Source of the DNA: Calditrichota bacterium
Lineage (GTDB): Bacteria; Calditrichota; Calditrichia; RBG-13-44-9; J042
Direction of reading: 5' to 3'
Length of the DNA stretch: 35,011 bases
NCBI GenBank assembly: GCA_013150955.1
Contig: JAADJD010000044.1
Coordinates: 1 to 35,011, forward strand
Shown here: in pieces, positions 1,287 to 14,858 of the stretch
Layout: each line of letters opens with the position of its first letter
How positions within the stretch are numbered: the stretch's first letter is position 1
Translations under genes and position numbers: made by a program
Notes under the pieces: generated by a model
The model's database searches: none
What the model saw: only the letters and a program-made list of their open reading frames with translations
What the model was told of the DNA's origin: nothing

Positions 1287-3707
1287 TCATAGAAATCTGG
1301 GATATCGCCGGGGATCGGCTTCGTGCATCAATTCATACACAACTTCAAAGATATCTTCCGCGTTGGGTTTAGAGAAGTAATCACCATCCGAACCGTAGGC
1401 GGGTCGATGCGGTTGGGCGCTTAGAGTACGCGGTTCTGCATCCAGCCAGTAGTATCCTCCCTGTTTTTCAATGACTTCCTGCATCATGTAGGCAGTGGTT
1501 CCACCCGGCACGTCTTCATCCACAAATACAATGCGGTTGGTTTTTTTCAGGGATTCCAGGATGATGCCGTTTCGGTCAAAAGGTAGCAGCGATTGTACAT
1601 CGATGACCTCCACATCAATTCCCACCGGGGCCAGGCGTTCGGCTGCCTGTAGGGCAATGCGGCACAGGGCACCGTAGGTAACCAGTGTCACATCTTTTCC
1701 CGGGCGTAAAATATCCGGTACCCCCAAGGGTACCGTGAATTCTCCGATATTATCCGGCAGGCGCTCCTTCAGGCGGTATCCGTTTAACACTTCCACGATG
1801 ATGGCCGGTTCATCAGACTGGAGCAGGGTGTTGTAAAATCCCGCTGCCTGGGTCATGTTTCGGGGAACCAGCACGTGCATGCCCCGCACCAGATGGATGA
1901 TTCCCGCCATCGGCGAGCCTGAATGCCAGATGCCTTCCAGCCGGTGTCCCCGCGTGCGCACAATGACCGGTGCCTTCTGCCCCCCTTTGGTTCGCCAGTG
2001 CAGGGTGGCCAGATCGTCGGACATCAGTTGCAGGGCGTAGAGCAGGTAGTCCAGGTACTGGATTTCTGCAATGGGGCGCAGTCCCCGCATGGCCAGGCCA
2101 ATGGCCTGCCCCAGAATGGTGATCTCCCGGATGCCGGTGTCTGCCACCCGCAGTTCCCCGTATTTGGCCTGTAATCCCCGAAATGCCTGATTCACATCAC
2201 CCAGACGCCCCACGTCTTCACCAAACGCCACGATGCGCGGATCCCGTTTCAGCGCTGCATCGAAGCAGGCATTAAGCACTTCGAATCCGTACACCAGGGG
2301 AGAATCCTCGGAATATTGCGGCGGGATGGGCTCTACCTGCAGGGCCGATTCGGAAGACTGGCTGTAGAGGTGGGAACTATAGCGTTCTCGATTGCGTTTG
2401 CGCTCCCGATTTCGCCAGACAATTAATTCCTGTCGGGCAGGGATGGATTCATCCCGCGTGGCGATCAGTACCTGCTGAACGGTTTCAAAGATGTCCCGGC
2501 GCAAGGCAATCGGTGCCCGGAGTAATTTTTGTTTCATTGTGTTCAGCTCGCTGCCATGGCGTGAAGCGGCCGCAATCCGATCGATAATGGTAACAACCTG
2601 TTGCCGTTCTTCCCGGATGGGTTTCTGGAACGCTTCCCAGGCTTCGTCCCGAATGGTTTCCACCAGCTGGCGGTCTTCGGCTTCCCAGGCAGCCAGTTCC
2701 GCTTCCGTGGCAATGCCTTCGGCAAGCATCCATTCGCGCATTTTCTTGATGCAGTCGTGTTCCCGTTCCCATTCCAGCCGTTCTTTCGATTTGTACCGTT
2801 CGTGACTACCCGATGTTGAATGGCCCTGCGGCTGGGTGAGCTCAACCACGTGGATAAGGGCCGGAACATGATCTTTGCGAGCAACATCGGCAGCCCGGAT
2901 GTACGTTTCCACCAGGGTGGGGTAATCCCAGCCTTTCACCGTATAAATGTCGAAACCGTCCTTGCTCCCCCGTTGACGTTTGAAGCCTTTTAAGATTTCA
3001 CTCAGATTGCCTTTAGTAACCTGGTGTTCGTTGGTCACGGATATGCCGTAATCGTCGTCCCAGATGGAGATAATCACGGGTATTTTCAGTACCCCGATGG
3101 CATTGACCGTTTCCCAGAACATGCCTTCTGCACAGGAGGCGTTCCCGATGGTACCAAAAGCAATCTCGTTCCCATTGTTGGAGAATTGTTTGAAGGCTTT
3201 GAGAGCCTCCAGCTCCCGGTAAAGTTTGGAGGCCAGTCCCAATCCCACCAGACGCGGCATCTGCGAGGCCGTGGGGGAGAGATCCGCTGCCGAGTTGTGG
3301 ATTTCCATCAGATTTTTCCAGCTGCCATCGGTATTCAGGCTTCGGGTAGCAAAGTGGCAATTCATCTGGCGACCGGCGCTGGCGGGATCATACGCCTCGT
3401 CCGGGTGCGCGTAAAGCTGGGCAAAAAACTGGTGAATGTTGGATTCCCCCAGTGCAAACATCAGCGTCTGGTCGCGGTAATATCCCGATCGGAAATCCCC
3501 TTTCCGAAAGGCCTTTGCCAGGGCCAGCTGGGCCACTTCCTTACCATCTCCAAAAATGCCAAATTTTGCCCGGCCACTCATCACTTCTTTGCGACCCAGG
3601 ATGCTGGCGTGGCGACTACGTACTGCCAGCCGATAGTCTTGAATAATCTGCTCTGCCGTTAAGACGATCGATTTTAATTTGATGACATTTTGCCTGGCGT
3701 TAATCAT
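1287..3707 (-). CDS. Fused alpha/beta E1 of branched-chain 2-oxoacid dehydrogenase
   Basis: This thiamine-diphosphate E1 decarboxylates a 2-oxo acid (branched-chain 2-oxo acids most likely, pyruvate possible) and passes the acyl group to the lipoyl E2. At 806 aa it fuses two normally separate subunits. Residues about 1-430 are the alpha half, with GNASCAEG followed by WDDDYGISV as the diphosphate-binding region. Residues about 475-806 are the transketolase-like beta half, with [19 protein letters not shown] and the C-terminal domain [18 protein letters not shown]. The same fusion is known in Bacteroidota and relatives. The listed start is the ATG at 3707, with AGGGGA 8 bases upstream; a TTG sits one codon earlier. 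No E2 or E3 gene is adjacent, so those subunits must be encoded elsewhere. The gene stands alone on the minus strand and diverges from the transhydrogenase operon. Confidence 0.88.
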
Positions 3708-3750
3708 CAATGAAATCCCCTAATTTTCTGTTTCTTACCGGTGTTGATGC

Positions 3751-3779
3751 GTTACACTGCCGGGTCGAATCTATGGCAA
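3751..3779 (-). promoter_or_regulatory. Possible promoter of the fused E1 gene
   Basis: On the minus strand TTGCCA (3774-3779) and TGTAAC (3751-3756) are 17 bases apart, upstream of the E1 start. This is a sigma-70-like match by eye only. Confidence 0.3.
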
Positions 3780-4136
3780 AATGGGGGTTGGTTTTTCACC
3801 GCCGAACAATATCCACTATCCAGAATGCCCCGCGTTCCGCTCCCGATGCTTCAGCGTGCTGAGTCCTTGCATCCTCTATTTTTTATCACGCATTGACGCC
3901 GCGAAATTTCAACAACCGGTTATTCCCCAATGTGGGCAGTAATATAAGCAGGCGAGGCGGGATTTTTAAAACGGATTTTTAGTTTTTGCGGGGCAGGGAG
4001 GGGCTTTGTGAAAAGGGTCATAAAATTTTTTAATGCTGGATTTTTTTACTTCTATTTTAAATATTTATTCCTGATTTTTTATGGAGTTCAGGGTATTCAC
4101 CCAATTCCACTTATCAAAATAAAGGGAGAGCATCTT
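3780..4136. other. Divergent intergenic region, E1 / pntAA
   Basis: This is the gap between the divergent E1 and pntAA genes. It is T-rich near 4020-4090 and has the strong ribosome site AAAGGGAGAG at 4121-4130 ahead of pntAA. I see no E or R2 copy and no clear riboswitch or operator. The long upstream reading frame from 4008 is not needed to explain pntAA. Confidence 0.5.
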
Positions 4137-5291
4137 ATGATTGTCGGAGTGCCAAAAGAGACATTTCCGGGCGAGCGGCGGGTGGCGTTGATTCCCGCGA
4201 GTGTCCCGGCGTTAACGAAGGCTGGGTTTGAGGTGTTGGTGCAAGCGGGTGCGGGTCTGGAAGCGGGTTTTCTGGATGCGGAATACCAGGAAAAGGGTGC
4301 CCAGATTGTAACCTCCAGGGAAGAGGTGTTCCAGAAAGCGGATGTCATTTTGCAGGTACGCACCCTGGGTGCCAATCCGCAAAAAGGGATGGATGATCTG
4401 AAGCTGATGCGCGAAGGGCAGGTGATCATTGGGTTTATGGAACCGCTGACGGCTGTGGAACCGCTTCAGGAACTGGCCAAGCGCAATGTGCAGGCGTTTG
4501 CGATGGAGCTCATCCCCCGGATTACCCGGGCCCAGAGTATGGATGCACTGTCGTCCATGGCCACAATTGCCGGATACAAGGCGGTGCTGCTGGCGGCCAA
4601 CCATTTACCGCGCATGTTTCCCATGATGATGACCGCCGCAGGAACCATTGTGGCCGCCAAGGTTTTTGTGGTGGGTGCAGGTGTGGCCGGTTTGCAGGCC
4701 ATTGCCACCGCGCGCCGATTGGGTGCCGTGGTTCAGGCCTATGACGTGCGCCCCGCCGTGAAGGAGCAGGTGATGAGTCTGGGAGCCAAGTTTGTGGAGC
4801 TGGAACTGGAAACGGCCGAAGCTGAGGACAAGGGCGGGTATGCCAAGGCCATGGACGAAGAATTCTACCGCAAGCAGCGCGAGATGATGACCAAGGTGGT
4901 GGCCGAAAGCGACGTGGTGATTACCACGGCGGCGGTGCCGGGCAAAAAAGCGCCCATTCTGATTACCGAGGAAATGGTGAAGGGAATGCAAAAGGGTTCG
5001 GTCATCCTGGATCTGGCGGCAGAACGGGGCGGCAACTGCGAATTGACCCGGCCCGGCGAGGTGGTGGATGCCCATGGGGTCACCATCATTGGGGCATTGA
5101 ATCTTCCCGCAACCATTCCGTATCATGCCTCGCAAATGTACTCCCGAAATATTCAAAACTTTTTATTATTAATGGCCAAAGAAGGGAAGCTGGAAATTAA
5201 CCTGGAAGACGAAATCCTCCGCGAAACGCTGGTAACCCAGAATGGCCAGATTGTAAACGCCCGTGTGAAAGAGATCTTTGGGCTGCAATGA
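4137..5291 (+). CDS. pntAA: NAD(P) transhydrogenase subunit alpha 1 (NAD-binding domain I)
   Basis: This is the soluble NAD(H)-binding part of proton-translocating transhydrogenase, which drives NADP+ reduction by NADH using the proton gradient. The 384-aa product opens MIVGVPKETFPGERRVALIP, the signature of the alanine dehydrogenase/PNT N-terminal domain. A Rossmann motif VGAGVAGLQAIATARRLGA lies near residue 178 and is followed by AYDVRPAVKEQV. The conserved LDLAAERGGNCE and ALNLPATIPYHAS stretches are present. I chose the ATG at 4137 for its ribosome site (AAAGGGAGAG) and family length; a frame from 4008 would add 43 hydrophobic residues not found in the family. It is first in the operon with pntAB (22 bases downstream) and pntB. 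The split alpha1/alpha2/beta arrangement is the three-subunit form, as in Rhodospirillum. Confidence 0.95.
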   Translation: MIVGVPKETFPGERRVALIPASVPALTKAGFEVLVQAGAGLEAGFLDAEYQEKGAQIVTSREEVFQKADVILQVRTLGANPQKGMDDLKLMREGQVIIGFMEPLTAVEPLQELAKRNVQAFAMELIPRITRAQSMDALSSMATIAGYKAVLLAANHLPRMFPMMMTAAGTIVAAKVFVVGAGVAGLQAIATARRLGAVVQAYDVRPAVKEQVMSLGAKFVELELETAEAEDKGGYAKAMDEEFYRKQREMMTKVVAESDVVITTAAVPGKKAPILITEEMVKGMQKGSVILDLAAERGGNCELTRPGEVVDAHGVTIIGALNLPATIPYHASQMYSRNIQNFLLLMAKEGKLEINLEDEILRETLVTQNGQIVNARVKEIFGLQ

Positions 5292-5313
5292 CATTTTGAA
5301 GGAGGGTGATGAT

Positions 5314-5595
5314 ATGACGGATTTTGTAATGATTTTAACCATCTTTGTGCTGGCAATTTTTGTGGGTTTTGAGGTGATCACCAAAGTGCCTCCCATTTTG
5401 CATACCCCGCTTATGTCCGGTTCCAATGCCATTTCGGGAATTACCATTATTGGAGCCATCATTTCAGCGGGGAGCCAGCATACCGCGTTGACAACGATCC
5501 TGGGATTGATGGCGGTGATTTTTGCCACGATCAATGTGGTGGGTGGATTCATGGTGACTCATCGAATGTTGGAAATGTTTAAAAGAAAGGAATGA
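5314..5595 (+). CDS. pntAB: NAD(P) transhydrogenase subunit alpha 2 (membrane)
   Basis: This is the small membrane subunit of the transhydrogenase, contributing helices to the proton channel (domain II). The 93-aa product has about three hydrophobic segments. It also has the conserved KVPPILHTPLMSGSNAISGI loop and the C-terminal TINVVGGFMVTHRMLEMF. I chose the ATG at 5314 because AGGAGG lies about 8 bases upstream; the frame stays open upstream but overlaps pntAA. The stop is 3 bases before pntB. Length and context match the alpha-2 subunit of three-subunit enzymes. Confidence 0.95.
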   Translation: MTDFVMILTIFVLAIFVGFEVITKVPPILHTPLMSGSNAISGITIIGAIISAGSQHTALTTILGLMAVIFATINVVGGFMVTHRMLEMFKRKE

Positions 5596-5598
5596 GCC

Positions 5599-7014
5599 AT
5601 GTCTGAAGCAATAATCAACCTGGCCTATCTTGTGGCTTCGGCGCTGTTTGTATTGGGATTGAAAGGGTTAGCCCATCCCCGAACAGCGGTTCGAGGAAAC
5701 CTGATGGGCGCCCTGGGAATGCTGATTGCTATTGTGGTAACCCTGTTTCATAAGGATATTATTGACTACAAGCTCATCTTCACCGGATTTGTGATTGGTG
5801 GTGCGATTGGGGCCATTCTGGCGGTAAAGATTCAGATGACGGCCATGCCGCAGCTGGTGGGATTGTACAACGGATTTGGTGGCGGCGCGTCGTTGCTGGT
5901 TGCGGGTGCAGCCTGGATCGAAACCCTGACCATGGCCCAGGCCGGCGATGCTCAGGCAATGGCTTTGCTGGGAAATGAACAATTCAGTGTGGCCACCATC
6001 GCATCCGGGATCATCGGTGCGGTCACCTTCTGGGGTAGTCTGGTTGCCTTTGGAAAACTTCAGGGACTGGTCACCGAAAAGCCGGTTCGCTACACCGGGG
6101 AACAGGTGGTGAAAGTGATCTTGCTGGTGGGTTCGATTGTACTGGGCGTGATGTTGATCCAGACCCCGGAACACATCACCTATTACTGGTATATGGTGGC
6201 AGTGGCCTCGGTGCTGGGAATCTTGCTGGTAATGCCCATTGGTGGTGCGGACATGCCGGTGGTGATTGCCCTGTTGAATTCCTATTCTGGTCTGGCGGCG
6301 GCAGCCACGGGGTTTGTGCTGTCCAACAATGTGCTGATCATTGCCGGATCTCTGGTTGGTGCCTCGGGAATTATTCTGACCAACATCATGTGTAAGGCGA
6401 TGAACCGCTCGTTGCTGAATGTGTTGTTTGGTGGGTTTGGCGAAGTGGCCGAGGCGGCCGAAGAAGGCGATATTTACGCTGGGAAAATCAAGGCAACCTC
6501 CCCTGAAGAAGTGGCCATGTTGCTGGAAACGGCGCGACGGGTGGTTATTGTTCCCGGTTACGGAATGGCGGTAGCCCAGGCGCAGCATGCGGTACGTGAC
6601 CTGTTTAACCTGCTGGAATCCAAAGGTGTGACCGTGGAGTTTGCCATCCATCCAGTAGCCGGTCGCATGCCGGGTCACATGAACGTGCTGCTGGCCGAAG
6701 CGGATATTCCTTACGACAAGCTCAAAGAAATGGACGAAATCAATCCGCAGATGGAACAGGTCGATGTGGCCATTGTGCTGGGTGCCAACGACGTGGTGAA
6801 TCCCGTGGCCCGTACCGATCCCAATAGCCCCATTGCCGGTATGCCCATCATCGATGTGGACAAAGCCCGGACGGTTGTGGTGATTAAGCGGAGTTTGAGT
6901 CCGGGGTTTGCCGGCATTCCCAATCCTCTATTCGCCCTGGACAATACCCTCATGCTATTTGGCGATGGGAAAAAGATGATCCAGGAAATCATCAACGCAA
7001 TTAAGGAAGGATAA
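5599..7014 (+). CDS. pntB: NAD(P) transhydrogenase subunit beta
   Basis: This is the beta subunit. The N-terminal part (about residues 1-270) is a bundle of roughly nine membrane helices forming most of the proton path. The C-terminal part (about 300-471) is the NADP(H)-binding domain III. Visible signatures are VVIVPGYGMAVAQAQHAVRDL, the HPVAGRMPGHMNVLLAEA loop and LGANDVVNPVARTDP. The 471-aa length is typical. The start at 5599 has AAAGGA upstream and follows pntAB by 3 bases, implying translational coupling. A hairpin just after the stop (7037-7060) ends the operon. Subcellular site: inner membrane, domain III in the cytoplasm. Confidence 0.95.
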   Translation: MSEAIINLAYLVASALFVLGLKGLAHPRTAVRGNLMGALGMLIAIVVTLFHKDIIDYKLIFTGFVIGGAIGAILAVKIQMTAMPQLVGLYNGFGGGASLLVAGAAWIETLTMAQAGDAQAMALLGNEQFSVATIASGIIGAVTFWGSLVAFGKLQGLVTEKPVRYTGEQVVKVILLVGSIVLGVMLIQTPEHITYYWYMVAVASVLGILLVMPIGGADMPVVIALLNSYSGLAAAATGFVLSNNVLIIAGSLVGASGIILTNIMCKAMNRSLLNVLFGGFGEVAEAAEEGDIYAGKIKATSPEEVAMLLETARRVVIVPGYGMAVAQAQHAVRDLFNLLESKGVTVEFAIHPVAGRMPGHMNVLLAEADIPYDKLKEMDEINPQMEQVDVAIVLGANDVVNPVARTDPNSPIAGMPIIDVDKARTVVVIKRSLSPGFAGIPNPLFALDNTLMLFGDGKKMIQEIINAIKEG

Positions 7015-7036: not shown

Positions 7037-7060
7037 GGGGAGCTCTGCCAGGAGCTCCCC
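7037..7060 (+). terminator. Terminator after pntB
   Basis: A perfect 9-bp stem (GGGGAGCTC/GAGCTCCCC) with a 6-base loop lies 22 bases after the pntB stop. It is followed by TATTTCAT, so the T-tract is weak. It could also be only an mRNA end-protecting hairpin. Confidence 0.65.
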
Positions 7061-7158
7061 TATTTCATAAATCCATAATTATCAGATAAAAAGGTCTGAA
7101 AGTCCGGAATGATTCCATGGCGATAATTCCCATTGCCCAAAAATTTTTTACGAATGTT

Positions 7159-7187
7159 TTGCATTTGAATTATCCGCTTTATTATAT
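7159..7187 (+). promoter_or_regulatory. Possible promoter of the Alternative Complex III operon
   Basis: TTGCAT (7159-7164) and TTATAT (7182-7187) are separated by 17 bases in an A/T-rich gap of about 320 bases between the pntB terminator and the next gene. The match is by eye. The leader to the first ATG would be roughly 140 bases, long enough to hold regulation, but no known riboswitch was recognised. Confidence 0.4.
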
Positions 7188-7336: not shown

Positions 7337-8650
7337 ATGATAATTTGGGATGCACTGATTTCGCAGCCGAGAGCTGACCACCTGATCATTGCAAAATATA
7401 TTGTGATTGTTCTCTCGCTGTTCTTCTTTCCCTATATATCCATCCTGTTTGGTTCGTTGCTATATGCGCTGGGATTAAACGTCAAAGGTCGTGCCGATCA
7501 CAATCCGCTGGAAATTCGCCTGTCTGCAGACATCATGACCACTTTTGGAGGGGGATTGGGCCGGGGCTTTTTCCTGGGGATTCTTCCCCTGATGGTGATC
7601 GGGGTCGCATTTGCCCAGATTTTGTACGATTCGGATTTTAATGTAGTGTTGCACTTTGGTACCATTCTGGTACTGGCAACGCTGGGAATCATTTTCAGTT
7701 TTTTTGCCCGCAATTATGCCCTCGAAATAGAAGCCAAAGAAAAACTCTTTCGGATTACCGCCACACTGGCCATCGTGTTTCTTTTCCTGACCATCTACGG
7801 ATTTGTGGCCACCACCTCGCTGATGTACTATCCTGGAAAATGGGCCACCATGAAGACCGGATTACCGACCCTCTTTTCGGCAATTGTTTTTGTGCGTTTG
7901 TTGTGGGCGCTGACCTTTTCGCTGGGGTTGACCGCCGTGGCGATGTTGTTTTTCTTCTTTATCTGGGGTGACGGATTGGATTTTGGTAGCGATGATTACA
8001 AGCGCTTTGTGCGCTATTTTGTTGCCGGGAATGCCTTTCTGTTCACCCTGCTGCAGCCTCTCTTTGTCGTGTGGGATCTGTATATCTTTCCGGAGATTGG
8101 CAAGACGGCAGCCGTTTACAATCTTTCGGCAGGGTTTGTCTTGTTGCTGATGCTGTGTGGAATTTTCCTGTATCAGGTCATTATCAAGCAGAACGAGCGA
8201 CTGGGTTCGGCGGTGTTTCCGTTGTACATCCTGGGTGTGTTGCTGTTTTTCATCAGTGATCACGCGGGTCGCGAGACGGCCTATCAGGAACATACCAATT
8301 ATTTGCTTGCTCAGGCCGAACAGCTAAAACAGCAGCAGGCAATGGAAGCGGCTCCGGCGGCCGAGGAGGCCGTTTCCAAAATGGAGCTGGGCAAGCAGAT
8401 CTACAATATTCGTTGCGCTGCCTGTCATGCTTTCGATCGGAAAGTGGTGGGGCCGCCGCACTTCGACGTGTTGCCCAAGTATGTGGATAAGAAGGAGGAG
8501 TTGGTCAAGTTTATCCTCAGCCCGGTGCGGGTCAATCCCGAATATCCGCCCATGCCCAGTCTGGGATTGCAACCGCATGAAGCCGAGGCGGTTGCCGAGT
8601 ATCTGCTGGAAGAATTTCAACGGCAAAAACAGGCCTCCGGTCAACAATAG
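7337..8650 (+). CDS. Polytopic membrane protein fused to a C-terminal cytochrome c domain
   Basis: This is the first gene of the Alternative Complex III operon. The 437-aa product has about eight hydrophobic helices (residues about 15-320). An Ala/Gln/Glu-rich linker follows near 330-348. The last 85 residues form a class I cytochrome c domain with one heme motif, CAACH, and a likely Met ligand in PPMPSLGL. Classical operons encode a separate monoheme cytochrome (ActE), which is absent here, so this domain probably takes its role in passing electrons to a soluble carrier or oxidase. That is inference from content and position. I do not recognise the family of the membrane part. It has a good ribosome site (AGGAG, 9 bases before the ATG). 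The next gene follows after 36 bases. Confidence 0.75.
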   Translation: MIIWDALISQPRADHLIIAKYIVIVLSLFFFPYISILFGSLLYALGLNVKGRADHNPLEIRLSADIMTTFGGGLGRGFFLGILPLMVIGVAFAQILYDSDFNVVLHFGTILVLATLGIIFSFFARNYALEIEAKEKLFRITATLAIVFLFLTIYGFVATTSLMYYPGKWATMKTGLPTLFSAIVFVRLLWALTFSLGLTAVAMLFFFFIWGDGLDFGSDDYKRFVRYFVAGNAFLFTLLQPLFVVWDLYIFPEIGKTAAVYNLSAGFVLLLMLCGIFLYQVIIKQNERLGSAVFPLYILGVLLFFISDHAGRETAYQEHTNYLLAQAEQLKQQQAMEAAPAAEEAVSKMELGKQIYNIRCAACHAFDRKVVGPPHFDVLPKYVDKKEELVKFILSPVRVNPEYPPMPSLGLQPHEAEAVAEYLLEEFQRQKQASGQQ

Positions 8651-8686: not shown

Positions 8687-9211
8687 ATGGTGGTGAAAGA
8701 AAAAATTATTCCCATCGGGATTGTTGGCTATTTTCTGTTGATGGTTGCCTTGATCGGGGTGCTGGGGTGGTACTGGCAAAATTTTCAGAAAACCCCCGTG
8801 CAGCCCATCGAGTTTCCCCATAACGTGCATGTGGGCAAGTTGAAGCTGGACTGTCAGTTCTGCCATAAATTTCCCTCCAAGTCCAAGTTTGCCACGGTGC
8901 CATCGGTGAAATTGTGTGTGGATTGCCATAAAACGGCGGCAACCGATCGCCCGGAAGTGAAGAAGCTCCTGAAATACTGGGAAGATCAGGTACCCATCGA
9001 ATGGCTGAAGGTGTATAGTTTTCGGAAGAATGCCAATGTGAATTTCAGCCATAAGCCGCATATTCGGGCGGGGGTGGATTGTTCCACCTGCCATGGACGG
9101 GTGGATCAGATGATCACTGCCCGCAAAACCCGGAACATCAATATGGGATTCTGTGTGTCCTGTCACCGACAGGAACGAGCCCCCACGGATTGTTGGACGT
9201 GTCATAAATGA
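8687..9211 (+). CDS. actA: Alternative Complex III pentaheme cytochrome c, ActA-like
   Basis: This membrane-anchored multiheme cytochrome c receives electrons from the iron-sulfur subunit and passes them outward. One N-terminal helix (about residues 8-28) anchors it. Five CXXCH motifs follow: CQFCH (56), CVDCH (77), CSTCH (132), CVSCH (156) and CWTCH (169), the heme number known for ActA. Conserved extra histidines such as FPHNVHVG and FSHKPH are candidate distal ligands. At 174 aa it is a compact member. The start is uncertain: AGGAG directly abuts the ATG at 8687, whereas a GTG two codons later (8693) has the better 6-base spacing. actB begins 20 bases after the stop. Confidence 0.9.
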   Translation: MVVKEKIIPIGIVGYFLLMVALIGVLGWYWQNFQKTPVQPIEFPHNVHVGKLKLDCQFCHKFPSKSKFATVPSVKLCVDCHKTAATDRPEVKKLLKYWEDQVPIEWLKVYSFRKNANVNFSHKPHIRAGVDCSTCHGRVDQMITARKTRNINMGFCVSCHRQERAPTDCWTCHK

Positions 9212-9231: not shown

Positions 9232-12048
9232 ATGAAAAGACGTGATTTTTTGAAGATAGTCGGTATCGCTTCCAGTGCCACGTTGCTTTCCTCCTGTGGT
9301 GTGGAAAAGGGAACCGAAAAGTTGATCCCCTTTCTGGTGCCACCGGACGAGGATTACATTCCCGGTGTGGCGCAATATTATAGCTCAACCTGTACGGAGT
9401 GTCCCGCCAATTGTGGGGTGTCGGTCAAGGTGGTGGATTTTAATCCCATCAAGCTGGAAGGTCTGGAAGCCAATCCCATAAATCGGGGCGCGCTGTGTTT
9501 GCGGGGACAGTCTTCCATCGTGCGTCTGTATCATCCTGACCGGATCAAGCAACCGCTCAAACGCGGGGCGAATGGTCAGTTTCAGCCCATTGGCTGGGAT
9601 GAGGCCATTCAGCAGGTGGTTCAGGCACTGAAATCTGCGCGCGGGCAGGGCAAGGCCAATGTGTATTTGTCCGGACGCACCACCGGTTCCTTATCCCGCC
9701 TGCTGGATAATTTTGCCAAAGATGCCGAAGTGGAGCGAGTTCCAGAATACGAGCCTTTTGCCCATGCCAACTTGCGAGAAGCCTATCGGCTGGTGTTTGG
9801 TCGCAAAGAAATTCCTTTTTATCGCATAGAGGATGCAGATTTTCTGCTGACGGTGGGTGTGGATTTGGTGGAAACCTTTGTGAGTCCGGTCAGTTATGCC
9901 AAACAGCTGTCGCGGGCAAAGGATCGGGAAAATTTCCGCTGGTTGCACTTCGAGCCTCATGCCTCGTTGACCGGCTTTCAGGCCGATAAGCGCTTCATCG
10001 TCAAACCGGGCAGCGAAGCGTATCTGGTTGGCTTCTTTTTGAATTATATCCTGACCAATGGTCTGAATAAGAAACGAATTCCTCCTGAAATTACCAATGC
10101 ATTACCCAAAATTGATGCCGGCCAGGCCGCAGAAAAGACCGGCCTGGATGCGGACACCTTAAACAAGCTGGCGGCTCAGCTGGCCGAAGCGCGTGCACCG
10201 ATGGTCATCAGTGGTGGAGTGAGTACGCATCAAAAGAACGGGCTGGAAACAGCGGTACTAACGGCCCTGTTGCAGTGGGCACTGGGATTGACCGATCGGC
10301 TGGTGGATTTTGCCCGTGCAGAAAACTACGATCACGTGGGTAGCGTTGCCGATGTGCAACAGCTGGTTAAACGGCTCAATGCAGACGAAATTGGGGTGCT
10401 CTTCCTGGCCCGAACCAATCCCGTGGCCACGTTACCGGCAGCCATTCCGTTTGCCCAGGCCATGGCCCGTGCCAGTTTTAAAGTCGCGTTAACCGACTTT
10501 CTGGATGAGACTGCCGAACAATGTGATCTGATTTTACCGCTTTCCCACAGCCTGGAAAGCTGGGGCGATGCCGAACCCCGGAAGGGCCTGTTGAATTTAA
10601 TCCAGCCCACGGTGGAACCCATCTTTAATACCCTGTCCGAAGGGGATATCCTGCTGGCCATCGCCGATGGCTACCAGGGACGTCCCAATGTATTCTCCTA
10701 TCAGCAGTGGTTGTTGCGGGAATGGAATCGCACCTACGGCGAGGCGTTTGTGGATGAGTTCCTGAAAAAGGGATTCTACGAAGCCCCTGCCAAGGCTGTG
10801 CGCTTAAGCCTGAATACGCGGGCCCTGACCCGTTTCTTGAAGGACGCGAAACTGGATGTTCGGCCTCAGGGTCACATTCTGTATGCCATTCCCTCGTTGC
10901 GCATGTTCGACGGACGCAGCAAGGTATTGAAACTTACCTCGGAGATTCCGGATCCCCTAACCACCATTTCCTACGGGGAATGGATCACCGTTTCCGACGA
11001 AACGGCCGAACGGTTGAAGCTTAAAGACAAAGATGAAGTGGCCTTTCAGGTCAATGGAAACCAGCTGGCACTGCCGGTAAAAGTTCAGCCGGGATTGAAT
11101 GGGGATGTTTCCACCATTCACTGGGATCAGCTGGAACGGGCCTTTCTGGATGTGGATCAGCGGAGCGGTGAGATTCTGGCTGTGGTTTCTGGTGGCCAGA
11201 TGCAGAAGACCGGTAAGAAGATTGCCATTCCCATTCTTTCTGGATCGATGGAAGAAGCGTACGAGCGGGGCATTTTCCCGGATCACAATGGACACGGCAT
11301 GAAGCATCACGCCGATGTGCGCGAGACCCTGTATCCCCCGCATGAGCATCCGGAATACCGCTGGGCGATGACCATCGATCTGGAAAAGTGTATTGGATGT
11401 TCAGCTTGTGTGGCAGCCTGCTATGTGGAAAATAATGTGGCCATCGTCGGTAAAGAAGAGCATCTGATCGGTCGGGAGATGTCCTGGATCCGCATCGAAC
11501 CGTTCTACGGAAAGGATCGCGATCGCGAGATGAACTTCATGGTCATGTTGTGCCAGCAGTGTTGCAATGCCCCCTGCGAGACGGTGTGCCCCGTGTATGC
11601 CACCATGCACAATCCCGAGGGCTTGAACGCAATGGTTTACAATCGCTGCGTGGGTACCCGATACTGCCACAACAACTGCCCCTACAAGGTGCGTCGGTTC
11701 AACTGGTTCGATCATGAATGGGAAACGCCGCTGGATCGGATGCTCAATCCCGATGTATTTGTGCGGCATAAAGGAATCATGGAAAAATGTACCTTCTGCG
11801 TGCAGCGGATCCGTACCGCACGGGATGTGGCCAAGGATGAGAAACGCAAGATTCGCGACGGTGAAGTGATCCCGGCCTGTTCGCAGACCTGTCCGACAGA
11901 TGCCATCGTATTTGGAAATCTGCTGGATGAACAGGCACGGGTCACCAAGCTGGCCCATTCAGATAGATCGTATCGGGTGTTTGAAGAAATTGGTACCGAA
12001 CCAGCTGTGTATTATTTGCGGAAAAAGGAGATAAAGGATGAAGCATAA
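9232..12048 (+). CDS. actB: Alternative Complex III iron-sulfur subunit, ActB-like
   Basis: This large periplasm-facing subunit combines a molybdopterin-oxidoreductase-like domain (residues about 35-690) with a ferredoxin-like domain (about 700-938). The N-terminus MKRRDFLKIVGIASS is a twin-arginine signal and ends in LLSSCG, a lipobox. The C-terminal domain has cysteine groups CIGCSACVAAC, CQQCCNAPCETVC, CVGTRYCHNNC and CTFC with CSQTC, enough for four clusters in the NrfC/ActB pattern. The first domain also keeps a CX2CX3CX27C motif beginning CTECPANC, which would bind one more cluster. The ActB proteins I know lack it, so this copy looks more ancestral. No molybdenum-ligand residue is evident. 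GGAGG is 7 bases before the ATG; the last codons overlap actC. Confidence 0.92.
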   Translation: MKRRDFLKIVGIASSATLLSSCGVEKGTEKLIPFLVPPDEDYIPGVAQYYSSTCTECPANCGVSVKVVDFNPIKLEGLEANPINRGALCLRGQSSIVRLYHPDRIKQPLKRGANGQFQPIGWDEAIQQVVQALKSARGQGKANVYLSGRTTGSLSRLLDNFAKDAEVERVPEYEPFAHANLREAYRLVFGRKEIPFYRIEDADFLLTVGVDLVETFVSPVSYAKQLSRAKDRENFRWLHFEPHASLTGFQADKRFIVKPGSEAYLVGFFLNYILTNGLNKKRIPPEITNALPKIDAGQAAEKTGLDADTLNKLAAQLAEARAPMVISGGVSTHQKNGLETAVLTALLQWALGLTDRLVDFARAENYDHVGSVADVQQLVKRLNADEIGVLFLARTNPVATLPAAIPFAQAMARASFKVALTDFLDETAEQCDLILPLSHSLESWGDAEPRKGLLNLIQPTVEPIFNTLSEGDILLAIADGYQGRPNVFSYQQWLLREWNRTYGEAFVDEFLKKGFYEAPAKAVRLSLNTRALTRFLKDAKLDVRPQGHILYAIPSLRMFDGRSKVLKLTSEIPDPLTTISYGEWITVSDETAERLKLKDKDEVAFQVNGNQLALPVKVQPGLNGDVSTIHWDQLERAFLDVDQRSGEILAVVSGGQMQKTGKKIAIPILSGSMEEAYERGIFPDHNGHGMKHHADVRETLYPPHEHPEYRWAMTIDLEKCIGCSACVAACYVENNVAIVGKEEHLIGREMSWIRIEPFYGKDRDREMNFMVMLCQQCCNAPCETVCPVYATMHNPEGLNAMVYNRCVGTRYCHNNCPYKVRRFNWFDHEWETPLDRMLNPDVFVRHKGIMEKCTFCVQRIRTARDVAKDEKRKIRDGEVIPACSQTCPTDAIVFGNLLDEQARVTKLAHSDRSYRVFEEIGTEPAVYYLRKKEIKDEA

Positions 12049-13378
12049 AGAGGTTGATACCGCCAAACCCATGACGCCACGAGAGAAGATCGATTATCAG
12101 AACGAGATCGAAGAGCGTGTACTCAGCGCCATGCGCAAGCCGACCCCCCTGTACTGGATCGGTCTGGGGATCAGCCTGTTGATGGTTCTGATTGGAGCCA
12201 TCTCCTGGGCGCACCAGATCCGCACCGGAATGGGGGTCGCTGGCATTACCAATCCGGTGGGCTGGGGGGTCTACATTACCGACTTTGTGTTCTGGGTGGG
12301 AATTGCCCACTCCGGCACCCTGATTTCCGCCATTTTGTTTTTATTTCGGGCCAAGTTCCGAAGCCGCTTCAACCGCTCGGCGGAAGCCATGACCGTATTC
12401 GCCGTGTTAACGGCCGGATTGTTCCCCCTCATCCACCTGGGACGGGTCTGGTTCGCTTACTGGCTGTTTCCTTATCCCAACCAGCGTCTGCTGTGGGTCA
12501 ATTTCCGTTCCCCGCTAATCTGGGACGTCTTTGCCGTAAGCACCTACCTGACCGTGAGCGCCATCTTCTTTTACGTGGGGATGATCCCCGATCTGGCCAT
12601 CGTGCGTCGGTTTAAAAAAGGGTTTGCCAAGCGCATCTACAGCATCCTTTCGCTGGGCTGGACGGGTACCTTTAAGGAATGGCAACATTACAATCAGTTA
12701 TACAAATACCTGGCCGCTCTGGCCACACCGCTGGTAATTTCGGTACACTCGGTGGTGTCCTGGGACTTTGCCATGAGTGTGATCCCCGGATGGCATACCA
12801 CCATCTTTGCGCCCTACTTTGTGGCCGGGGCAATCTTTTCCGGTTGTGCCATGGTGATTACCCTGGTGGTTCCCATGCGCAAGATGTTTAAACTGGAGAA
12901 GATCATCACCATCGACGATTTTGACAAGCTGGCCCAAATCCTTTTGTTTACCTCGTTGATCGTGGGCTATGCCTACATTGTGGAATACACCATCGCTTTC
13001 TGGAGCGGCAATGTATTCGAGGAATCTCAATTTATTTACCGGGTGGTGGGGGAGTACAAATGGTTCTATTATCTGATGTTTTTCTGTAACGTGATTCTGC
13101 CGTTAACCCTCTTTTCCAGCAAACTTCGGCGGAATATCAAGTACCTGTTTGTCGTGTCCATCTTCGTGAACATCGGTATGTGGTTCGAGCGATTTAACAT
13201 CATTGTCATGTCGCTGGCCCACGATTTTGATCCATACGCCTGGGGCTTTTACATGCCCAGTCTGGTCGAATTTGGTATTACTCTGGGAAGTTTTGGCTGG
13301 TTCTTTACCTGGTTCCTGATTTTCGCCAAAACACTGCCCATCGTTTCCATTACCGAGCTAAAGGAGGAAGTGGCATGA
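12038..13378 (+). CDS. actC: Alternative Complex III membrane subunit, NrfD family (ActC-like)
   Basis: This is an integral membrane quinol-oxidising subunit of the NrfD/PsrC family. It has 446 aa with about ten hydrophobic helices after a charged N-terminal tail. Recognisable stretches are GVYITDFVFWVGIAHSGTLISAILFL, MTVFAVLTAGLFPLIHLGR, and HSVVSWDFAMSVIPGWHTTIFAPYFV (quoted in parts from roughly residues 70-260), typical of ActC. It should carry no heme and form a quinol site near the iron-sulfur subunit. The ATG lies inside the end of actB (11-base overlap), preceded by AAGGAGATAAAGG. The stop overlaps actD as ATGA, so the operon is translationally coupled. Confidence 0.93.
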   Translation: MKHKEVDTAKPMTPREKIDYQNEIEERVLSAMRKPTPLYWIGLGISLLMVLIGAISWAHQIRTGMGVAGITNPVGWGVYITDFVFWVGIAHSGTLISAILFLFRAKFRSRFNRSAEAMTVFAVLTAGLFPLIHLGRVWFAYWLFPYPNQRLLWVNFRSPLIWDVFAVSTYLTVSAIFFYVGMIPDLAIVRRFKKGFAKRIYSILSLGWTGTFKEWQHYNQLYKYLAALATPLVISVHSVVSWDFAMSVIPGWHTTIFAPYFVAGAIFSGCAMVITLVVPMRKMFKLEKIITIDDFDKLAQILLFTSLIVGYAYIVEYTIAFWSGNVFEESQFIYRVVGEYKWFYYLMFFCNVILPLTLFSSKLRRNIKYLFVVSIFVNIGMWFERFNIIVMSLAHDFDPYAWGFYMPSLVEFGITLGSFGWFFTWFLIFAKTLPIVSITELKEEVA

Positions 13379-13815
13379 AGGAAGAATATAAATTTGAAGA
13401 TCGGGAAGAGTTTCTCAAGAAGCTGGAAGAAGTTCTGGCCAGCGGAATTTCTCCCAGAAAGGTGAATGCCATCTTCCCGCATCCCGATCACGAAGTGGAA
13501 GAAATCTTTGAGAAATACGTGCCCAAGAGTAAGCTGAAATTTTTTACCTTGTTGGGGGGATTATCGGGAACCATCAGCGGGTTTGCGTTGACCATTTTGA
13601 CCGTACTCCACTGGCCATTGATTACTGGTGGAAAACCGTTGATTTCCATCCCGGCTTTCATTGTCATTGCCTTCGAAATGACCATTTTGTTTGGGGCATT
13701 GGCCTCTGTCACCGGTTTTGTATTGCTGTCCCGGATTCCAAACTTCAAGCGCATTCTATATCCGGAAGATTATGGAAACGAGTATGTGTTACAAATTGAG
13801 AGAGAGGATCAGTAA
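13375..13815 (+). CDS. actD: Alternative Complex III subunit ActD (DUF3341)
   Basis: This is a small membrane subunit of the complex. The 146-aa product has a soluble N-terminal part (about 1-55) and two hydrophobic helices, near residues 57-80 and 95-122. The loop between them, HWPLITGGKPLISIPAFIV, holds the W-P-x-x-x-G-G-K-P core of DUF3341. It is shorter than many ActD proteins because the N-terminal region is reduced. Its start overlaps the actC stop and its stop overlaps the actF start, a compact arrangement that supports assembly as one complex. Confidence 0.9.
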   Translation: MKEEYKFEDREEFLKKLEEVLASGISPRKVNAIFPHPDHEVEEIFEKYVPKSKLKFFTLLGGLSGTISGFALTILTVLHWPLITGGKPLISIPAFIVIAFEMTILFGALASVTGFVLLSRIPNFKRILYPEDYGNEYVLQIEREDQ

Positions 13816-14858
13816 TGAGGGAAACAAATAGCAAGTTGTTGCAATTTACCATTGTGTTTCTGGTTGCCAGTGCACTGGTGTATTTGATTGAATATTTTAT
13901 CCCTTCCGGAAAAGGCGGCTCCTTATTGTTTAATCTTTTGTTCTGGGTGTCCATTGTCGAGGGGGCCATTGCGGTGGTTGCCGCAGCCGAAGTGACCAAT
14001 GGAAAATGGATTGCTCCCTATAGACGCGATTTGCTGGGCGTTTATCCCCTGTTGTTGCTGATTACGTTCTTGTTTGTAGCCTTCATTCCCCGAATTGAGT
14101 ATTATCCCTGGGTGCACGAACCGGGCATCTGGTTGAATAAAAATTTATTTATCATTCGCTGCATTCTCTTTTTGCTGGCGGCCTTTTATTCGGCCCATCT
14201 GTTTGCGCGGGAGACCCTGCGTGGTGGACCAAAAAAACGATTTTATGCGGTAATTTACCTGTTCGTGTACGTGATTTCGCAAACGTCTGTGGCATTCGAC
14301 TGGGTCATGTCCCTGAACTATCCCTGGTACAGCACCCTGTTTGGTGGATACTTTTTCATCGAAGCGTTTTATACAGGATTGGCACTGGGGGGCATTCTGA
14401 CTTACGTGTATTACCAGCGTTATCAGCAGATCGAAGGATTCCCCAAGGCACAGATGGATATGGCCACGCTGTTATTTGCCTTTAGCGTGTTCTGGGGTTC
14501 GCAGTTTTACACCCAGTATCTGGTGATCTGGTATGGTAATTTGCCAGAGGAAGTTTCATTGATCGTGCATCGCATTTCCCACTCGCCCACCCGCGAATTT
14601 TCCTATTTGATTATTGTTCTGCTATTTGTGGTGCCCTTTTTGACGCTGATCTCTCGCAAGCTGAAAGCCAATCCGCGATTTCTATTGTTTATCTCGCTGG
14701 TGGTTTGGTTGGGGATTGCCATTGAGCGATTGGTGTTGATTGGCCCGGTGCTGACGGTGCATCCCATTCCGCTGATCATTGAGTTCGTGCTGGTGGGCGG
14801 ATTGTTCTTGTGGGTGTTCCGGCAGCGGGATCAATTTCTGGTTACGGCAGAAGCTTAA
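13815..14858 (+). CDS. actF: Alternative Complex III membrane subunit ActF
   Basis: This is the second NrfD-like integral membrane subunit, paired with ActC in the membrane core and proposed to take part in proton movement. It has 347 aa and about ten hydrophobic helices. The signature VISQTSVAFDWVMSLNYPW with YSTLFGGYFFIEAF near residue 155-190 is diagnostic of ActF. The ATG overlaps the actD stop by one base (TAATG). It is the last gene of the operon and a strong hairpin terminator follows 56 bases after the stop. No cytochrome oxidase gene follows, unlike many such loci. Confidence 0.9.
   Translation: MRETNSKLLQFTIVFLVASALVYLIEYFIPSGKGGSLLFNLLFWVSIVEGAIAVVAAAEVTNGKWIAPYRRDLLGVYPLLLLITFLFVAFIPRIEYYPWVHEPGIWLNKNLFIIRCILFLLAAFYSAHLFARETLRGGPKKRFYAVIYLFVYVISQTSVAFDWVMSLNYPWYSTLFGGYFFIEAFYTGLALGGILTYVYYQRYQQIEGFPKAQMDMATLLFAFSVFWGSQFYTQYLVIWYGNLPEEVSLIVHRISHSPTREFSYLIIVLLFVVPFLTLISRKLKANPRFLLFISLVVWLGIAIERLVLIGPVLTVHPIPLIIEFVLVGGLFLWVFRQRDQFLVTAEA

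Follow-up and report, generated by a model that had tools for sequence, protein, structure and literature searches.

What carries electrons out of an Alternative Complex III (ACIII) whose operon has no separate monoheme ActE, and what is the membrane protein joined there to a cytochrome c domain? The question is raised by a 35,011-nucleotide stretch of a Calditrichota genome (the window, meaning the whole of the DNA analysed), in which a gene for such a fusion protein precedes a set of act genes. The sites and genes of the locus are:

7037–7060, + strand: terminator-like G+C-rich hairpin between pntB and the fusion gene (consensus match only)
7158–7185, + strand: weak sigma-70-like promoter match (consensus match only)
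7337–8650, + strand: fusion gene, 437 aa, bd-superfamily-like membrane domain plus class I cytochrome c
8687–9211, + strand: actA, 174 aa, five CxxCH motifs, one N-terminal transmembrane (TM) helix, no sixth heme
9232–12048, + strand: actB, 938 aa, molybdopterin-like and iron-sulfur domains (PDB ACIII ActB chains, best E 5.8e-122)
12038–13378, + strand: actC, NrfD-type quinone-binding subunit (6f0k_C, E 3e-136)
13375–13815, + strand: actD, short relative to the canonical form (PF11821, E 9.8e-31)
13815–14858, + strand: actF (6btm_F, E 3.1e-18)

The identities of all five downstream ACIII genes, actA-B-C-D-F, are confirmed, with the four known ACIII ActB chains as the best PDB matches of the actB product. 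On the 3' side of the fusion gene the gaps are 36 nt and 20 nt, followed by overlaps; on its 5' side 322 nt separate it from pntB, and this gap houses both the hairpin and the promoter match, neither of which belongs to a class of site that exceeds shuffled sequences by much. An AGGAG resembling a ribosome-binding site also lies upstream. The fusion gene is the head of the operon, as a preliminary description of this DNA had stated, and that description was also right that actE is missing: the operon contains no separate monoheme actE, a situation known from some other act clusters (PMC8552683). A separate actE elsewhere in the genome was looked for as well, and no ActE-like gene is found among the Cytochrome_CBB3 profile matches of the whole genome, which is 99.7% complete. 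There are five such matches: the fusion gene itself, a cbb3-oxidase (CcoP-like) subunit on contig C11, a 150-aa lipoprotein-like cytochrome c on contig C61, apparently in a nos cluster, and two on C51 that sit in frames without a CxxCH gene. Heme c is borne in addition by subunit II of a caa3-type oxidase on contig C62; the oxidase cluster of this genome lies on that contig, without a fusion gene, and no cox gene is near the fusion in the window.

Two side observations concern this neighborhood. Directly 5' of the fusion gene lie pntA and pntB (window 4008–7014), encoding a proton-translocating transhydrogenase, and judging by gene sizes and starts the same pair is 5' of the fusion in loci L021, L022, and L130. 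Within ActB, residues 50–90 of the window protein keep an N-terminal CxxCxxxCx(n)C iron-sulfur motif (CTECPANCG...GALC), which is also present in 8 of the 9 fusion-type ActB proteins checked and in the second ActB of genome G007, and is missing from two canonical Calditrichota ActB proteins (L126 and L128).

The fusion protein itself is divided as follows:

7373–8290, + strand: membrane domain, residues 13–318, eight helices, CydA'-like (AlphaFold, hhalign, Foldseek)
8291–8377, + strand: linker, residues 319–347, with model confidence lowest around 340–346 (AlphaFold)
8378–8638, + strand: class I cytochrome c domain, residues 348–434, c551/c552-like (Pfam, profile matches)
8414–8428, + strand: CAACH heme-attachment motif, residues 360–364, with C360 and H364 (sequence)
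8546–8569, + strand: PPMPSLGL loop, residues 404–411, with Met406 the predicted sixth heme ligand (sequence)

Open reading frame, Pfam, and AlphaFold agree that a cytochrome c domain and an eight-helix protein are fused here, as first described; the boundaries of the frame are exactly 7337–8650 (+ strand) and its product has 437 aa. Residues 349–424 match Pfam Cytochrome_CBB3 and Cytochrom_C above the curated cut-offs, and the features of a class I cytochrome c are present, namely CxxCH, a C-terminal helix, a Met ligand, and the fold (c6 structural matches). Eight membrane-spanning helices appear in both AlphaFold models, built from 14 sequences (mean pLDDT 86) and from 48 (mean pLDDT 91). The loops hold 8 Lys and Arg inside versus 4 outside, a modest positive-inside bias that suggests an N-out, C-out topology and thus a periplasmic heme domain.

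The preliminary description regarded the membrane part as unrecognised, and direct searches do leave it unnamed: residues 1–338 match no family in scans of Pfam and NCBIfam, and the membrane-domain profile has no match among PDB sequences. It is nevertheless recognizable as a CydA'-like relative of cytochrome bd with most ligands lost. A profile search of the Calditrichota phylum, covering 40 genomes, retrieved distant cytochrome-free homologues (L082, L083, and L084) that adjoin CydA-like proteins with cytochrome c motifs, one of which is a Pfam Cyt_bd_oxida_I match (E 1.3e-9). These CydA'-like relatives we take to be of the OR-type subfamily. In profile–profile comparisons the fusion membrane domain matches the OR-type CydA'-like proteins with E 5e-28 over 303 columns and their CydA-like partners with E 4.8e-9; the CydA'-like and CydA-like proteins match each other (E 4.4e-10), and the CydA-like partners match canonical CydA (E 1.7e-6). 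Compared directly with canonical CydA, the membrane domain reaches only E 0.04, which is not significant, so the link to bd has to run via these OR-type intermediates. Control profiles are flat, at 0.045 for CydB, 0.1 for ActC, 0.074 for ActF, 0.12 for COX1, and 0.049 for CtaB.

Structural comparison points the same way and calls for one alternative to be weighed, that a diverged NrfD/ActF-type subunit, or some unrelated helix bundle, makes up the N-terminal domain and resembles bd by convergence. The best PDB matches of both AlphaFold models are cytochrome bd chains, with Foldseek probability 1.00 and TM to target up to 0.60, and nothing matched belongs to a family unrelated to respiration; the E-values are only 0.003–0.04, however, and ActF and ActC chains stand lower in the same lists, at TM about 0.4. 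At low TM-scores bd, NrfD, and other helix bundles can resemble each other, so the chain of sequence comparisons outweighs the fold search, and there the ActC and ActF profiles reach only 0.074–0.1 against 5e-28 for the CydA'-like proteins across the whole domain. On that profile comparison an NrfD/ActF duplicate was rejected, and convergence is highly improbable. Taking fold and ancestry together, we consider it very likely that the membrane domain goes back to a CydA'-like subunit from the branch of the bd superfamily that uses cytochrome c, the OR-type.

OR-type (OR-N/OR-C) CydAA' subfamilies are attributed to Murali, Gennis and Hemp 2021 in the excerpt of PMC10839748 that cites them. The membrane domain of OR-type CydAA' is homologous to that of the fusion, with a full-length alignment, and some OR-type proteins also carry cytochrome c domains; in a tree the OR-type group and the ACIII/oxidase-linked group are split by a branch of 1.61 with support 100/100. 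Two OR-type loci were observed beside the main result. In L064 (GN15) a CydA-like protein and a CydA'-like protein, each fused to cytochrome c, are adjacent and group with the OR-type oxidases; the ACIII-linked fusion may have arisen from an arrangement like this pair. In L131 (G032, 2678–5332) an OR-type CydA-like protein of 885 aa has eight CxxCH motifs with MtrC/MtrF-like and c7-like matches and adjoins a CydA'-like gene, apparently a bd-like oxidase fused to a multiheme wire.

Does the membrane domain still work as a bd-type redox unit? H19 and H186 of CydA are heme ligands, and the corresponding positions of the window protein are:

7424–7426, + strand: F30, the helix-1 His position of bd-type relatives, aligned with E. 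coli CydA H19; His lost
7904–7906, + strand: W190, the second conserved His position of OR-type CydA' (helix 5); His lost

The equivalence of position 190 to H186 is less certain than that of position 30 to H19. All six OR-type relatives have His at both positions, and among the 53 ACIII/oxidase-linked fusions His30 is present in 6, His190 in 11, and both in 3 (L064, a row that falls within the OR-type group, is assigned to it and is not one of the 53). The ligands of heme c (Cys, Cys, His, and Met), by contrast, are invariant (54 of 54). The OR-type CydA'-like proteins differ from the fusion family in more than ligands: they adjoin a CydA-like gene with cytochrome c, keep both His, and have no act genes in the stretches examined, whereas the window fusion has no CydA partner, and belongs to a family in which the ligands are mostly lost and the gene lies in the ACIII/oxidase cluster. 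A domain that still carried heme b or d and reacted with quinol or oxygen would make the fusion a minimal cytochrome-c-oxidizing oxidase joined to ACIII, as its clear OR-type descent might suggest; since three of the 53 fusions retain both bd-type His, some members might indeed still bind heme b. For the family and the window protein this reading is very unlikely: most members, the window protein included, lack both His, and the other membrane-domain His residues of the window protein are peripheral, at helix ends or in loops. A functional bd oxidase is recognized by a paired CydA/CydB or CydA/CydA' gene, and there is no such partner in the operon; Cyt_bd_oxida_I matches the genome at one place only, a canonical cydAB on contig C66.

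The cytochrome c domain has an ActE-like property, being a monoheme c with predicted His/Met ligands (CAACH and Met406) that are both invariant in the family. The ActE of Rhodothermus and Flavobacterium is likewise a monoheme c with Met/His ligation at the electron exit of ACIII, but it is lipid-anchored and unrelated, and in F. johnsoniae there is an extra heme on ActA (PMC5928083, PMC8552683); the anchor of the fusion is its eight-helix membrane domain rather than a lipoprotein or single-TM anchor as in ActE. A profile of the fused c domain matches c551/c552-type cytochromes and gives no score for three canonical ActE or two ActD-ActE fusions tested, so that by its sequence the domain is c551-like, not ActE-like. 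The idea that it represents a displaced ActE was dropped for this reason: the profile scores other cytochromes c but not ActE or ActDE. Ignavibacteriota, moreover, possess an ActD-ActE fusion and a separate cytochrome c in addition to the bd-like fusion, whose gene lies there on the oxidase side of the cluster. The fusion is therefore not a simple ActE replacement, and since other heme c domains coexist with it there, its role in that group may be partly redundant. The separate Ignavibacteriota cytochrome c was considered as a second ActD-ActE fusion and rejected, its blast match being only via the shared c domain.

A survey of other genomes for a fusion adjoining actA, as had been proposed, found it in Calditrichota, Desulfuromonadales, and others. 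Within the window's order, 15 of 16 genomes carry a fusion of the same length, with membrane-domain identities of 27–82%, which excludes a chance origin; the one genome without it is 62% complete, and actD is not detectable in it either. In the remaining families of the class ACIII is mostly canonical, with a longer ActD and no such fusion, and in the canonical loci L126 and L128 a separate ActE and cox genes are in the same cluster. Genome G007 was seen to hold both types, a fusion-type ACIII (L017) and a canonical ActE-containing one (L127), the latter with no oxidase genes in the stretch examined. A scan of genome contigs with a profile built from four close sequences gave 44 family loci, two of them covering only the end of the fusion, plus three cytochrome-only matches (L065–L067) that were left out because they hardly extend beyond the cytochrome c part. 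The deposited titles of the scan records name Ignavibacteria/Melioribacter, Bacteroidetes/Chlorobi, Latescibacterota, Nitrospinae, Krumholzibacteriia, Holophagales, GN15, Kapabacteria, Desulfuromonadales, and Calditrichaeota; in the order of the Desulfuromonadales match, 19 of 78 sampled genomes had a match with E < 1e-9.

Gene order ties the family to ACIII and to heme-copper oxidase alike. A pentaheme gene is directly 3' of the fusion in all 14 full-length Calditrichota cases and in 6 further loci, and directly adjacent (actA downstream) in 12 of 12 fetched Desulfuromonadales loci; the fusion–actA pair is kept in the Calditrichota of the window's order and in Desulfuromonadales. In L036, L058, and L061 the order is SCO-COX1-COX3-COX2-ctaB-FUSION-actA-actB, with the fusion exactly between oxidase and ACIII, and the L036 and L061 clusters continue actC-actD-actF; in Ignavibacteriota it is ActDE-ActF-...-SCO-COX1-COX3-COX2-ctaB-FUSION. 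As an observation apart, four Desulfuromonadales loci (L160, L163, L168, and L171) have a second five-CxxCH protein immediately 5' of the fusion, with the usual pentaheme ActA 3'.

These arrangements could also mean that the fusion belongs to the cytochrome c oxidase, as an extra membrane cytochrome c subunit or assembly partner, and that its act neighbors are incidental. The fusion is the last gene of the cox cluster in Melioribacter, ctaB is directly 5' of it in 37 of 41 loci, and 28 of them include COX1. In Calditrichota and Desulfuromonadales, however, the invariant neighbor is the pentaheme actA directly 3', and in the window genome fusion and oxidase are apart, with no cox gene near the one and no fusion in the C62 cluster of the other. 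We consider a purely oxidase-bound protein unlikely, and favor a carrier that belongs to the ACIII chain.

Two members of the family seem to have been described before under other names. The Pelobacter carbinolicus act cluster was reported to contain an eight-TM monoheme "ActE", which was called unique and for which a cysteine channel was proposed (excerpt of PMC3543383); this protein has the same architecture as the fusion, and the excerpt makes no mention of bd homology. Our locus L166, with 8 Cys in the first 330 residues, is probably its gene or a close relative. In Melioribacter roseus, MROS_0033, a "class I soluble cytochrome c551/c552", was proposed as the shuttle between ACIII and oxidase (PMC3534657, PMC5492636),; its reliable detection was confined to aerobic cells, in which CoxI, CoxII, ActC, and ActDE were found as well, and it was assigned as the redox partner of the oxidase (PMC5492636). 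By gene order it is the same family, and although it was described as soluble, its homologues in genomes labelled M. roseus bear the eight-TM domain. Both the Pelobacter "8-TM ActE" and the Melioribacter "soluble c551/552" are thus probably members of the fusion family.

The mechanism suggested for the Pelobacter protein in that excerpt, a cysteine-lined redox channel leading to a cytoplasmic disulfide carrier, finds some echo in Desulfuromonadales, where residues 1–330 of some members contain 6–11 cysteines. In the window protein C274 is the sole cysteine that does not belong to the heme motif, and the family alignment contains no conserved membrane-domain cysteine; as a general mechanism we reject the channel, since most members are without such cysteines, and for the protein studied here it is scarcely credible.

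Taken with this evidence, the fusion protein probably serves the ACIII respiratory chain as a membrane-integral electron carrier on a tether, and the first suggestion, that it could anchor the electron exit or add another membrane module, holds up. What the computation shows is the architecture, the descent from bd, the loss of ligands in the membrane domain, the constancy of those of heme c, and the linkage of the gene to ACIII and oxidase; physical membership of the complex, the path of the electrons, and the non-catalytic role of the scaffold we infer. Menaquinol would be oxidized at ActC/ActB and the electrons would then run along the ActA hemes, where the c551-like domain, in the periplasm on a linker of about 30 residues, could collect them from the pentaheme wire. 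The tethered domain might deliver them to the CuA or cytochrome c domain of a heme-copper oxidase or to another high-potential acceptor; in the window genome the acceptor is probably the caa3-type enzyme on another contig, a guess in so far as the oxidase is encoded away from the act cluster. The bd-derived domain, with both His lost in the window protein, would be a membrane scaffold rather than a redox enzyme and might dock ACIII and oxidase together. Whether it forms a stable linker between the two is a suggestion that we put forward with less than even confidence. The fusion would then do what other systems divide among ActE, soluble cytochrome c, and a mobile sixth heme on ActA. When actE is deleted in Flavobacterium johnsoniae, electrons still reach aa3, and the extra mobile heme domain of ActA is thought to feed aa3 (PMC8552683).

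In the literature searched, which excluded the main paper on bd evolution and subscription reviews of ACIII, we found no statement of a bd-superfamily origin for the membrane part. The origin, the decay of the ligands, and the breadth of the family appear to be new here, while an eight-TM "ActE" as such had been noticed once before. The chemistry is ordinary and the construction unusual.

Known ACIII complexes release electrons through ActE, through an extra ActA heme, or with an unexplained lack of either, and the fusion family would add a further, widespread way, linked through gene order to both ACIII and oxidase; the one system in which genetics is possible can dispense with ActE (PMC8552683). 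The identification corrects two annotations in cultured organisms, the "soluble" c551/552 and the "unique" ActE, and the fusion can serve as a marker for actE-less ACIII clusters in metagenomes. Tentatively, and with rather less assurance than we have in the carrier role, we suggest that a captured bd subunit, having lost most of its hemes, became a "pseudo-oxidase" hub of a supercomplex, and that it marks a second, actE-less subtype of ACIII present in multiple phyla. This would be an uncommon case in which a subunit of a respiratory enzyme has seemingly given up its cofactors and taken on a scaffolding role.
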